From NCBI RefSeq assembly GCF_014132155.1, contig NZ_BLJQ01000004.1:62001-126000 (forward strand): a DNA stretch of 64,000 nt, given 5' to 3'. How positions within the stretch are numbered: the stretch's first letter is position 1; each line of letters starts with the position of its first letter. A program made the position numbers and the translations under genes. The notes under the pieces are model-generated. The model was not told the origin of the DNA, ran no database searches, and saw nothing but the letters and a program-made list of their open reading frames with translations. The DNA comes from Gluconobacter sp. Gdi (GTDB taxonomy: Bacteria; Pseudomonadota; Alphaproteobacteria; Acetobacterales; Acetobacteraceae). Shown here piece by piece: positions 32,941 to 38,258 of the stretch.

Positions 32941-33396
32941 TCAGGCAGACAGACGTGCCTTCACAAGCGCACTGGCCTTGGCCGGATCCAGATCGGCACC
33001 AAAACGCTCTTTCAGCGCCGCCATCACCTTGCCCATGTCTTTCATGCTTTCCGCACCTACAGCAGTGGCGGCTTCATCAATGGCAGACTTCAGAGTTGCC
33101 TCATCGAGTTCTGGCGGCAGGTAGGCCTTGATCGTCGCGATCTCACCCTCTTCCTTTTCCGCCAGTTCCGGACGGCCACCTTCACGATACATCGTTGCGG
33201 ATTCAGTACGGGACTTGATCATGGAGCGCAGAGCAGAAATAATCTCTGCTTCCGTCACTTCCCCTGTCTTGGCGCGAGCAGCAACTTCAAGATCCTTCAG
33301 CTTCGCCGTGATGCCACGGATCTGCGCCACCTTCTCAGACTGACCAGCCTTCATTGCTGTTTTGAGGTCATCCATGATCTGCGTGCGAAGCGACAT
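32941..33396 (-). CDS. yqeY: GatB/YqeY domain-containing protein
   Basis: A 151-residue protein homologous to the tail domain of GatB (tRNA-dependent amidotransferase). Motifs include LRTQIMDDLKTAMKAG at the start, the middle ALRSMIKSR and the later YLPPELDE and DMGKVMAALKERF. The molecular role of free-standing YqeY is not established. The ATG at 33396 has a CAGGAGA ribosome site. In many alphaproteobacteria yqeY sits beside dnaG-rpoD and divergent to carA; here carA is still its divergent neighbour, but dnaG is 8.5 kb away. Confidence 0.9.
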   Translation of the reverse strand: MSLRTQIMDDLKTAMKAGQSEKVAQIRGITAKLKDLEVAARAKTGEVTEAEIISALRSMIKSRTESATMYREGGRPELAEKEEGEIATIKAYLPPELDEATLKSAIDEAATAVGAESMKDMGKVMAALKERFGADLDPAKASALVKARLSA

Positions 33397-33519
33397 GCGT
33401 CTTCTCCTGTTTGCGCGGGGCCTGAAAAGCCCCTGTTCAGTCAATGGCGGCAAAATCGCATAAAAGCCTCCCCCCAACAATGGAAAGCACAGCTCTTTCC
33501 AGCATCGTCACAAGGTGTA

Positions 33520-33578
33520 GGGAAGTTTTTTCCCATACCACCCCGCAGACACAAAAACTCATTGGGAAAAAACTTCCC
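33520..33578. promoter_or_regulatory. Twin inverted 16-bp motif upstream of carA (putative operator)
   Basis: Two copies of GGGAAGTTTTTTCCCA, one on each strand, lie at 33520-33535 and 33563-33578, and they match perfectly. Each copy is itself a near-palindrome (GGGAA-N5-TTCCC). Their centres are 43 bp apart, about four helical turns, so two bound dimers would face the same side of the DNA. The right copy may overlap a -35 box (TTCCCA at 33574 with TATCAG 17 bases later at 33597). The position between divergent yqeY and carA fits an operator. A long RNA hairpin is the alternative. Confidence 0.65.
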
Positions 33579-33638
33579 ATTCCCGGTTCGATCGCCTATC
33601 AGACGGGAAAGTGAACGCGGAGCCAGGAACGGGCGACC

Positions 33639-35000
33639 ATGGACATCGACAGAATCATTGAAAAAGCTGGTGGCGCGGAAGAAATCGCCGCGCTGGCTGG
33701 TGTCGGCCTTGAAGCCGTACGAAAGTGGCGTCAGTCGCGAACCGTGCCGACCAAGCACTGGCCCGCCCTACTGCGCGTTCCCGGAATCGAACTCCAGGAC
33801 CTAACTTCCGCTGAAACCCCGCAAGAAAGAGAGACGGACGTGTCCAATTCCTGCCCTGCCGGCGCCAATGCCGCCCTTGTCCTTGCAGATGGCACGGTCC
33901 TGTGGGGCCGAGGCTTCGGTGCCCACACCGATGGCGCCGTCGGTGAGCTCTGCTTCTCCACTGGCATGACCGGCTATCAGGAAACCCTGACAGACCCGTC
34001 TTTTGCTGGACAGATCGTCACCTTCACCTTCCCGCATATCGGCAATGTCGGTACGAACACGGACGACAATGAAGCGCCGAAAATGGCCGCTCTTGGCGCC
34101 GTCGTGAAGGAAGATGTCACCGCTCCGGCAAGCTGGCGCTCCATGGAATCCCTCGACAGCTGGCTGAAGCAGCACGGCCGTGCGGGTATCAGCGGCGTCG
34201 ACACCCGAGCAGTCACCCGTTCCCTGCGCGACAATGGTCCGCAAACTGCCATTCTTGCCTTCCCGGCAAACGGTCGGATCGACACGGACAGCCTGCTGAA
34301 CCGCGCCCGCCAGTGGCCTGGCCTCGAAGGCATGGACCTTGCAAAAGAGGTCACGCAGCCGAAGCGCGTCTGGACGGAAGGCGTATGGGAAAGCACCCGC
34401 CCGGCTCGTACCGAGAACCGCCGCCGCGTGGTCGCCATGGACTACGGCGCCAAGGACAACATCCTGCGCTGCCTCGTGACCGCTGGGTGTGACGTCACGG
34501 TTCTGCCCGCGACCGCTACGGCCGAAGAAATTTTGGAACTGAAACCCGAAGGCGTGTTCCTCTCCAACGGCCCGGGCGATCCGGCAGCGACCGGCACCTA
34601 TGCCGTCCCGGCCATCAAGGGCGTTCTGGATGCCAACGTTCCAGTCTTTGGCATCTGCCTTGGCCACCAGCTTCTCGCACAGGCTCTCGGCGGCAAGACC
34701 TACAAGCTGGATCGTGGCCATCGCGGCGCCAATCAGCCGGTCAAGGACATCGAAAGTGGCCGCGTGGAAATCACCAGCCAGAACCATGGCTTCGCCGTGG
34801 ATGAGAAGTCGCTGCCCGCTGATGTGAAGGTAACGCATGTGAGCCTGTTTGACGGCTCCAACGAAGGCATCGCCTCCACCACGAAGGACGCCTTCTCCGT
34901 CCAGTACCACCCCGAGGCCAGCCCTGGCCCGTCTGACAGTTTCTATCTTTTCGAGCGTTTCGTCGCGGTCATGGACCGTCGCGCTAAAGCAGGAGCCTGA
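33639..35000 (+). CDS. carA: Carbamoyl-phosphate synthase small subunit with N-terminal helix-turn-helix domain
   Basis: The reading frame encodes 453 residues. Residues ~68-453 are a normal CarA, the glutaminase that feeds ammonia to CarB for pyrimidine and arginine synthesis: an N-terminal CPSase domain (ELCFSTGMTGYQET), then a class I amidotransferase with nucleophile Cys in GICLGHQL and His/Glu in HPEASPGP. Residues 1-55 form an extra small domain (GGAEEIAALAGVGLEAVRKW, then VPTKHWPALL) resembling Cro/YdaS-type helix-turn-helix proteins. The ATG at 33639 has CCAGGA nine bases upstream. An internal GTG at 33841 could also start a standard-length CarA. There is no stop between the two parts, so use of 33639 must yield a fusion. 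Confidence 0.85.
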   Translation: MDIDRIIEKAGGAEEIAALAGVGLEAVRKWRQSRTVPTKHWPALLRVPGIELQDLTSAETPQERETDVSNSCPAGANAALVLADGTVLWGRGFGAHTDGAVGELCFSTGMTGYQETLTDPSFAGQIVTFTFPHIGNVGTNTDDNEAPKMAALGAVVKEDVTAPASWRSMESLDSWLKQHGRAGISGVDTRAVTRSLRDNGPQTAILAFPANGRIDTDSLLNRARQWPGLEGMDLAKEVTQPKRVWTEGVWESTRPARTENRRRVVAMDYGAKDNILRCLVTAGCDVTVLPATATAEEILELKPEGVFLSNGPGDPAATGTYAVPAIKGVLDANVPVFGICLGHQLLAQALGGKTYKLDRGHRGANQPVKDIESGRVEITSQNHGFAVDEKSLPADVKVTHVSLFDGSNEGIASTTKDAFSVQYHPEASPGPSDSFYLFERFVAVMDRRAKAGA

Positions 35001-35003
35001 GCC

Positions 35004-38000
35004 ATGCCAAAACGGACAGACATCAAGTCCATCCTGATCATCGGCGCAGGCCCGATCGTTATCGGACAGGCCTGCGAGTTCGATTACTCCGGCGCACAGG
35101 CCTGTAAAGCCCTGCGTGAGGAAGGCTATCGCGTCATCCTCATCAACTCCAACCCGGCCACGATCATGACTGATCCGGGCCTGGCGGACGCGACCTATAT
35201 CGAGCCGATCACGCCGGAATTCGTCGAGCGCATCATCCTTAAGGAAAAGCCCGACGCCGTCCTGCCGACCATGGGTGGCCAGACAGCCCTGAACGCCGCC
35301 ATGGCGCTCGACAAGTCCGGCTTCCTCAAGACGCACAACGTGGAACTGATCGGCGCGGACGCAGAGGTCATCGACCGCGCGGAAGATCGCCAGAAGTTCC
35401 GCGAGGCCATGGACGAGATCGGGATCGAAAGCCCGCGCAGCACCATCGCCCATACGCTGGAAGAAGCTCGTGCTGCTCTGGGTGACGTCGGCCTGCCGGC
35501 CATCATTCGTCCGTCCTTCACTATGGGCGGCGCTGGCGGTGGCATCGCATACAACCGCGAAGAGTTCGACCAGATCGTCACAGGCGGCCTCGATGCCTCA
35601 CCGACAACCGAAGTCCTGATCGAAGAATCCGTCCTCGGCTGGAAAGAATACGAGATGGAAGTGGTCCGCGACACCGCGGATAACTGCATCATCATCTGCT
35701 CCATCGAAAACATCGACCCGATGGGCGTGCACACCGGTGACTCCATCACCGTCGCCCCAGCCCTGACGCTGACCGATAAGGAATATCAGCGCATGCGGGA
35801 CGCCTCGATCGCGTGCCTGCGCAAGATCGGCGTCGAGACCGGTGGCTCCAACGTGCAGTTCGGCGTTAATCCTGCCGATGGTCGTCTGGTCGTCATCGAG
35901 ATGAACCCGCGCGTTTCCCGCTCGTCTGCCCTCGCCTCCAAGGCTACCGGCTTCCCGATCGCCAAGATCGCTGCCAAACTGGCCGTTGGTTACACGCTGG
36001 ACGAACTCAAGAACGACATCACCAAGACGACCCCGGCCTCCTTCGAGCCGACGATCGACTACGTTGTCGCCAAGATCCCCCGCTTCACGTTCGAGAAGTT
36101 CCCGGGCTCCCCGGCCCTGCTTTCCACGTCCATGAAGTCGGTCGGCGAGGCCATGTCCGTGGGCCGCTCCTTTGCCGAAGCCATCCAGAAGGGCTTCCGC
36201 TCCATGGAAACGGGCCTGATGGGTCTGGATCCGGTTGAAGCGCCCGGCGATGGCTCGAAAGACGCCTATCTGGCTGCTCTTGCAGAACCACGCCCGGAGC
36301 GCATTCTAATGGCCACGCAGGCCTTGCGCGCGGGCCTGACGGTCGAAGAGATCCAGCAGGCCTGCAAGTTCGAGCCTTGGTTCCTGCGCCAACTGGAAGA
36401 CATCGTGTCTTCTGAGCGGGACGTGGAAAAGAATGGCCTGCCAAAAGACGCCTACGGCATGCGCCGCCTGAAGGCCCAGGGCTTCTCTGACGCCCAGCTT
36501 GCACGCCTGTCAGGCCAGAGCATTCCGGACGTCGCAGCACAGCGCGAAGCTCTTGAAGTCGTGCCCGTCTATCGCCGCATCGATACCTGCGCCGCAGAGT
36601 TCGCTTCTGACACTCCGTATCTCTATTCCACCTACGAAGGCGGATACGGCACGCCGGAATGCGAAAGCCGCCCGACCAACCGCGACAAGATCATCATTCT
36701 GGGTGGCGGACCGAACCGGATTGGTCAGGGCATCGAGTTCGATTACTGCTGTGTTCATGCCGCTTACGCCCTGCGTGAAGCTGGTTTCGAAACGGTCATG
36801 GTCAACTGCAACCCGGAAACCGTTTCCACCGATTACGACACGTCCGACCGTCTGTACTTCGAACCTCTGACTGCGGAAGACGTCATTGCTCTGATCCGCA
36901 CGGAAGCGAAGGGCGGCAAGGTTCTGGGCTGCATCGTTCAGTACGGTGGCCAGACCCCTCTCAAGCTGTCCCGTGCTCTTGAAGAGGCAGGCATTCCGCT
37001 GCTCGGCACCCCGGCTGACGCTATTGATCGCGCGGAAGACCGTGAACGCTTCCAGACCATGCTGCGCAAGCTGGGCCTTCGCCAGCCACGTAACGGCATT
37101 GCCCGCAATCCGGCAGAAGCCGAGAAAGTGGCCGAAGAGGTCGGATACCCGGTCGTTGCTCGTCCGTCCTACGTTCTGGGCGGCCGTGCGATGGAAATTG
37201 TCTATGATAACGCAGGTCTGAAGCATTACCTGAATACGGTTCTGCGCGCTGCCGGCCCCGAAGTTTCCACCGGTCCGGTCCTGCTCGATCACTACCTGAA
37301 CGATGCCATCGAAGCCGATGTGGACTGCATTTCGGACGGCGAAAACGTCTATGTCGCCGGTGTCATGGAACACATTGAGGAAGCTGGTATCCATTCCGGT
37401 GACTCTGCCTGCTCACTGCCACCCTACACGCTCTCCCCGGCACTGGTGACGGAACTCCGCTCCCAGACGGAAGCCATGGCTCGTGAGCTTGGCATCCGCG
37501 GCCTGATGAATGTGCAGTACGCCATCAAGGACCAGGAAGTCTTCGTTCTGGAAGTGAACCCACGCGCCTCCCGGACCGTGCCGTTTGTTGCCAAGGCAAC
37601 AGGCGTTCCGGTTGCCAAGATCGGCGCTCGCGTCATGGCTGGCGCACGTCTGTCCGAGTTCCGTCTGGATGGCGGAGCGGTCTCCCCGCATGTTGCGGTC
37701 AAGGAAGCCGTCTTCCCGTTCCACCGCTTTGCGAACGCAGACACGATCCTCGGTCCGGAAATGCGCTCCACGGGTGAAGTCATGGGGCTGGATTCCAGCT
37801 TCGAGCGTGCCTTTGCGAAGTCTCAGCTTGCTGCTGGCGTAAAACTGCCACTGGCTGGAACGGTCTTCCTGTCCGTCCGTGACAGCGACAAGGGACATGT
37901 TCAGCCGCTAGCCCGCAAACTGGTTGAAATGGGGTTCACCGTTCTCGCAACCAGCGGCACGGCTTCACGCCTCGAAGCGGCTAACATTCCGGTAAAGCGC

Positions 38001-38258
38001 GTGAACAAGGTCATGCAGGGCCGTCCGAACTGCGTGGATGCCATCCGCTCGGGTGACGTTCAAATGGTCATCAACACCTCGCAGGGTGGCCAGGCCGCAC
38101 GTGACAGCTACGATATCCGTCGCGGCGCTCTGACCATGGGCATCCCGCACTACACCACGATTGCCGGTGCCCGCGCGGCAACCTACGCCATCGCGGTTCT
38201 CAAGGAAGGCGACCTCGACGTCGCTCCGCTTCAGTCCTACTTCAAGGGTGAGTTCTGA
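35004..38258 (+). CDS. carB: Carbamoyl-phosphate synthase large subunit
   Basis: A 1084-residue, two-step ATP-grasp enzyme making carbamoyl phosphate from ammonia, bicarbonate and two ATP. The two homologous halves are seen in [17 protein letters not shown] near residue 14 and [16 protein letters not shown] near residue 568, each with its ATP-grasp core ([14 protein letters not shown] and [13 protein letters not shown]). The C-terminal ~140 residues are the MGS-like regulatory domain ([11 protein letters not shown]). It starts three bases after carA and ends at a strong terminator, so carAB is a two-gene unit. Confidence 0.97.

Follow-up and report, generated by a model that had tools for sequence, protein, structure and literature searches.

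Twin conserved dyads upstream of carA and a Cro-like domain on CarA suggest a self-repressing enzyme subunit in Acetobacteraceae

Several metabolic enzymes, including PutA, BirA, and NadR, also control genes by binding DNA; PutA represses the divergent putA and putP units and binds solely within the spacer that separates them (PMC8249747, partial text). In E. coli, the carAB operon is controlled by ArgR, PepA, PurR, RutR, and IHF in answer to arginine, pyrimidines, and purines, and one of these regulators, PepA, is itself a trigger enzyme (PMC6245113, partial text). Here, we describe the carA locus of Gluconobacter sp. Gdi, found in a window of 64,000 nucleotides (the whole stretch of DNA analyzed), where the gene for the small, glutaminase subunit of carbamoyl-phosphate synthase (CarA) begins with a predicted helix-turn-helix (HTH) domain and is preceded by twin dyads. 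We put the probability at about 0.78 that CarA acts as a trigger enzyme, with these dyads as its operators, and represses its own operon; in other words, this enzyme subunit probably switches off its own production in Acetobacteraceae.

Such a circuit would add to the known trigger-enzyme kind, with differences. CarA resembles PutA, BirA, and NadR as a metabolic enzyme with gene control, which in its case is predicted, but it is a carbamoyl-phosphate synthase glutaminase subunit with a Cro-type HTH. The DNA-binding folds of PutA, BirA, and NadR are other than Cro-type. Moreover, E. coli carAB answers to separate regulator proteins, whereas in Acetobacteraceae the predicted DNA-binding domain is part of CarA, and while the Cro proteins of P22, N15, and Xfaso 1 are free phage proteins, the domain of CarA is fused to a housekeeping enzyme. 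No description of CarA as a trigger enzyme or self-regulator was found in the open-access literature, where the word carph-isopro, the name of its domain family, likewise had no match.

Twin dyads in the yqeY/carA gap

A preliminary description of this DNA, made from the letters alone, had reported an exact inverted 16-bp pair with centres 43 bp apart between the divergent yqeY and carA genes, each copy a GGGAA-N5-TTCCC dyad, and its coordinates agree with ours. GGGAAGTTTTTTCCCA occupies 33520-33535 on the plus strand and 33563-33578 on the minus strand, and both copies contain perfect 15-mer dyads (Table 1), the centres of which are 44 bp apart (43 bp for the 16-mers). Because each copy is a perfect dyad, only the outer A and the five bases at the centre distinguish the two orientations. 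With up to two mismatches allowed, GGGAAGTTTTTTCCCA matched twice in the window, compared with a mean of 0.07 matches, and never two, in 100 shuffles.

The genome-wide count that had been proposed as a check gave a divided answer. GGGAA-N5-TTCCC occurs at eight places in the Gdi genome, as does a reversed control pattern, so that a single dyad is not rare, but the extended form TGGGAA-N5-TTCCCA occurs at one place only, at carA. The unusual features are two dyads set closely together at a single promoter, the conservation of this pair, and the single occurrence of the extended dyad. Across genomes, the perfect 17-base dyad appears nearly confined to carA, where 67 of 75 occurrences lie by hand count among the matches listed; a wider regulon was rejected.

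Conservation was assessed in 150 Acetobacteraceae genomes, all of which matched CarA, some by a fragment or paralogue alone. Upstream DNA of carA was analyzed for 125, of which 121 had an in-frame HTH; the other four comprised two true losses (G116 and G029), a contig break with the HTH on another contig (G035), and an HTH present in another frame (G088). At least one dyad with two or fewer mismatches lay within 200 bp of 120 of the 121 HTH-bearing genes, and the single miss, G034, has variant dyads; the motif is thus present at carA in relatives that keep the HTH, as the preliminary description had asked. Perfect dyads occurred within 200 bp of the start in 102 of 121, compared with a mean of 0.1 in dinucleotide shuffles. 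Pairs within the same distance were found in 91 of 121 with one mismatch or fewer in each dyad (shuffle mean 0), and in 107 with two or fewer (dinucleotide-shuffle mean 0.28). When spacers of 0 to 13 were tried, a spacer of five gave 115 genomes, four gave 101, and every other at most 13. The centres are 38-40 bp apart in 77 of the 107 pairs and 44 bp apart in Gdi. Among 17 aligned Gluconobacter upstreams, positions 33565-33579, representing the proximal dyad, are invariant (17/17), most flanking DNA varies, and the distal dyad is more variable than the proximal one.

A Cro-like domain that keeps company with the dyads

The HTH noted earlier at the start of CarA corresponds to the carph-isopro family (NCBIfam NF046037), matched by residues 3-56 at 60.6 bits against a curated cut-off of 38. 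On the 67-residue N-terminus, Pfam families P22_Cro (PF14549; 15.6 bits) and YdaS (PF15943; 27.7 bits) stayed below their gathering cut-offs of 30.2 and 30, respectively. A phage origin of the HTH was among the readings tried: the CarA HTH matched phage repressor families weakly (best E 5.6e-5), while a stand-alone carph-isopro protein of the Gdi genome matched no PHROG family. An AlphaFold2 model (mean predicted local distance difference test score, pLDDT, 89) places helices at 3-10, 13-20, 24-33, 38-44, and 52-55, which corresponds to the all-helical HTH fold of the Cro type (Foldseek comparison, best 393 chains). By sequence and predicted fold, the domain is Cro-like. It shares one polypeptide with a TIGR01368 small subunit and a GATase domain, and CarA contains GICLGHQ and QYHPEASPGP stretches, which we take to be catalytic; the enzyme part is apparently intact.

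The dyads go missing where the domain is missing. No dyad with one mismatch or fewer was found in the 350 bp upstream of 31 HTH-less carA genes, 28 from other Alphaproteobacteria families and three from Acetobacteraceae (G116, G029, and G155), and G155 retains one dyad with two mismatches. G116 and G029 represent a single genus, and the other sampled members of G155's genus all match the domain; the operators are thus absent from both lineages of the family in which the HTH appears to have been lost. The corresponding loci (L323, L324, and L327) belong to small-genome Acetobacteraceae.

The letters of the dyad also vary with the domain. Among 220 distinct upstreams, pooled from the first draw, targeted genomes, and named loci, the half-site was GGGAA in 170, CGGAA in 35, and mixed in 15. 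The GGGAA (G) and CGGAA (C) classes were told apart most clearly by two of the 54 HTH columns, 32 (Q to S, A, T, or H) and 23 (G to S or T). As one targeted set was ranked for variant HTH, the fairer counts are those of the first draw and of genera, the latter leaving out named loci, which have no genus code. The first draw, with 6 rows of class C and 107 of class G, had a changed column 32 in 5/6 vs. 2/107 (p = 9e-7) and a changed column 23 in 5/6 vs. 12/107 (p = 2e-4); by genus, the figures were 5/8 C vs. 2/79 G (p = 3e-5) and 6/8 vs. 9/79 (p = 2e-4). These two-way tests leave out the mixed rows (15 of 220, and 8 of 89 in the tree). The CarA-core tree, which is poorly resolved, holds 89 of 117 candidate rows, the other 28, C-class rows among them, having been dropped for want of a full readable core. 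With the operator trait simulated on this tree (81 rows), column 32 gave p = 0.002, or 0.02 when corrected over columns, and column 23 gave 0.06 after correction; columns 8 and 34 had small single p values that failed correction, and an independent-pairs test yielded just one supported pair. In the AlphaFold2 model, column 23 lies just before helix 3 and column 32 near its end, which would put one at either end of the recognition helix. Exceptions to the pattern are g65, g80, g74, and a number of S23 lineages whose sites are of the GGGAA class. This covariation, together with the co-loss, supports a link between HTH and operator; we regard it as good, though short of conclusive, evidence that the dyads are read by the HTH of CarA itself.

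Alternatively, the dyads could be operators of a separate transcription factor, the HTH of CarA being structural or otherwise employed, which may also hold for the Cro-like domains of certain other enzymes. Three observations lean that way: the link between the HTH and the sites is an indirect one; the Gdi genome has further carph-isopro open reading frames (ORFs); and Cro-like HTH parts are found in phosphonate enzymes. Against it, the sites are absent where CarA has lost the HTH and at the 28 HTH-less carA genes of other families, an operator letter tracks columns 32 and 23, and the perfect site is nearly confined to carA. We regard this explanation as unlikely.

The presumed promoter and a possible mechanism

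A site with one mismatch or fewer was present in 115 of the 121 HTH-bearing genes. In 76 of these, no more than 46 bp separated the nearest such site from the HTH start. These close-set sites are preceded by TTG in 68 cases and followed by xA in 69, with both in 63, so that in 63 of 76 the proximal dyad fills the 17-bp spacer between a presumed -35 (TTG) and -10 (xA). The presumed -10 then ends at most about ten bases before the start codon, a distance suggestive of leaderless mRNA for the close-set carA genes. In the remaining 39 of 115, the Gdi genome included, the site lies further upstream, with TA 16-19 bases after it in 35 and TAT at 17 or 18 bases in 17; the site would therefore overlap the -35 element. 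No promoter emerged when 33390-33660 was scanned for a strict sigma-70 consensus. The promoters of G. oxydans 621H are lax (-35 ttGnnn, -10 nAtnnn), and 62 of its mRNAs were called leaderless (PMC5756330, partial text). The words carA and carbamoyl are absent from that text.

As in a trigger enzyme, a DNA-binding-type domain and an apparently intact enzyme share one polypeptide, and a conserved operator lies at the gene's own presumed promoter. We envisage that enzyme assembly joins two of the Cro-type HTH domains fused to the N-terminus of the glutaminase subunit, and that such a pair would bind each dyad through GGGAA half-sites 10 bp, or about one helical turn, apart. Two dimers, or else a single higher oligomer, could hold the two operators, which are some 39-44 bp apart. 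Since the proximal operator overlaps the presumed -35 or, in most of the genera sampled, occupies the spacer between -35 and -10, bound CarA would exclude RNA polymerase and lower carAB transcription. From the sequence evidence, we infer direct binding, repression rather than activation, and the existence of an effector. The autoregulatory circuit of the preliminary description thus draws support from conservation, co-loss, and covariation; its tie to pyrimidine and arginine supply is something we likewise infer.

Repression strength might be set by the free or metabolite-bound state of CarAB, or, in a simpler version, by plain feedback on the amount of CarA. The E. coli synthase is a heterodimer with uridine monophosphate (UMP) and a tetramer with ornithine, adenosine triphosphate (ATP), and potassium, and oligomerization as such is without effect on the control of activity (PMC6245113, partial text). 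In light of these findings, allosteric state could set HTH pairing, with a sign that cannot be read from sequence. A bolder proposal, which we offer tentatively and consider possible rather than probable, is that CarA is a metabolite-gated autorepressor with a domain from a phage-type Cro repressor, where UMP versus ornithine and ATP decides, through allosteric or oligomeric state, whether the HTH domains pair on the twin operators, coupling enzyme allostery to transcription of the operon throughout Acetobacteraceae.

It is also conceivable that CarA binds the operators yet activates transcription, or serves chiefly to organize the divergent promoters of yqeY and carA. Of 200 loci, 174 have yqeY next to carA, and some of the remaining 26 are short contig ends; of the two sites, the distal one is upstream of the presumed carA promoter. 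The proximal site, however, sits on the presumed core promoter elements, and operators persist at carA where yqeY was not found (e.g., L033, L087, L104, and L346), making this alternative very improbable. Even less credence is given to an RNA hairpin, whether the 16-bp stem with 27-base loop that the preliminary description put forward as the competing explanation, or a small hairpin or terminator at each dyad, that regulates carA or terminates a transcript. In the Gdi genome, each copy is the exact reverse complement of the other, and a terminator-like match was scored on the minus strand (33579-33563). Against this, perfect complementarity of the central five bases was seen in 6 of 107 pairs, where permutation predicts 3.4, and a conserved stem between the copies was rejected; most close-set proximal dyads fall between the presumed -35 and -10 and would lie outside the carA transcript; and Rfam gave no match up to E 1.

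If CarA does repress its own operon, a function would be at hand for the carph-isopro domain on CarA, which is named but unexplained, and the enzyme at the gateway to arginine and pyrimidine synthesis would join a short list of self-regulating enzymes. Control of carAB would then be explained in the whole of the Acetobacteraceae, including industrial acetic acid bacteria. The natural series of HTH and operator variants also lends itself to the study of how Cro-type domains read DNA.

Neighbouring features and other carriers of the domain

The features of the locus are collected in Table 1. The CarA proteins of Gdi and G. cerinus NBRC 3267 share 98% identity, and a terminator-like stem lies on the minus strand at 33470-33487 of the window, between the operators and yqeY.

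Table 1. Positions, within the window, of genes and predicted elements at the carA locus.
Feature	Position	Strand	Remarks
yqeY	32941-33396	-	Divergent neighbour of carA; start at 33396
Distal operator (predicted)	33519-33535	.	Perfect dyad 33520-33534, centre 33527; conserved in Acetobacteraceae
Proximal operator (predicted)	33563-33579	.	Perfect dyad 33564-33578, centre 33571
Presumed -35 (TTCCCA)	33574-33579	+	Within proximal operator; 17 bp before TAT
Presumed -10 (TATCAG)	33597-33602	+	Across 17 own-genus upstreams, TA invariant and third letter the same in 90% or more
carA with HTH (small, glutaminase subunit of carbamoyl-phosphate synthase)	33639-35000	+	
N-terminal Cro-like HTH (carph-isopro)	33639-33800	+	carA codons 1-54
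carB-like ORF	35004-38258	+	1084 aa; 3 bases 3' of carA; named by sequence reading and position

CarA exceeds the NF046037 cut-off. Of 28 loci that carry the domain in other families, none aligned to the CarA core (two being cut at contig ends), and none had a dyad with one mismatch or fewer in the 350 bp upstream, although two had a dyad with two mismatches. No HTH-bearing CarA was seen outside Acetobacteraceae among the matches listed (121 of 142 genomes of the class with a match), where alignments from residue 1 occurred in G000 and G040 alone, both Acetobacteraceae, and the others began at residue 24 or later. In three scanned loci of other Alphaproteobacteria families (L185, L202, and L206), the carph-isopro HTH is N-terminal on a mitofilin (Mic60-like) protein, and some of these genes apparently stand just after hemD, as judged by eye. 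The presence of a DNA-binding-type domain on mitofilin proteins is unexplained. In the Gdi genome itself, a stand-alone 85-aa carph-isopro ORF on contig C22 (L133:1444-1701), which matched no PHROG family, is divergent from an ORF resembling a CI-type repressor, and the pair is perhaps a prophage switch.

Five of the six non-carA GGGAA-N5-TTCCC places in the Gdi genome lie within ORFs of at least 90 codons. An intra-ORF dyad on contig C3 (L143:1501-1515) stands about 105 bases before an ORF named by eye as PurC-like, and may represent chance or a second target. Finally, G072 possesses 11 near-identical TGGGAAGGTGTTTCCCA-type dyads scattered over its genome (L150, L153, and nine more), none of them at carA, and these are probably copies of one mobile repeat.
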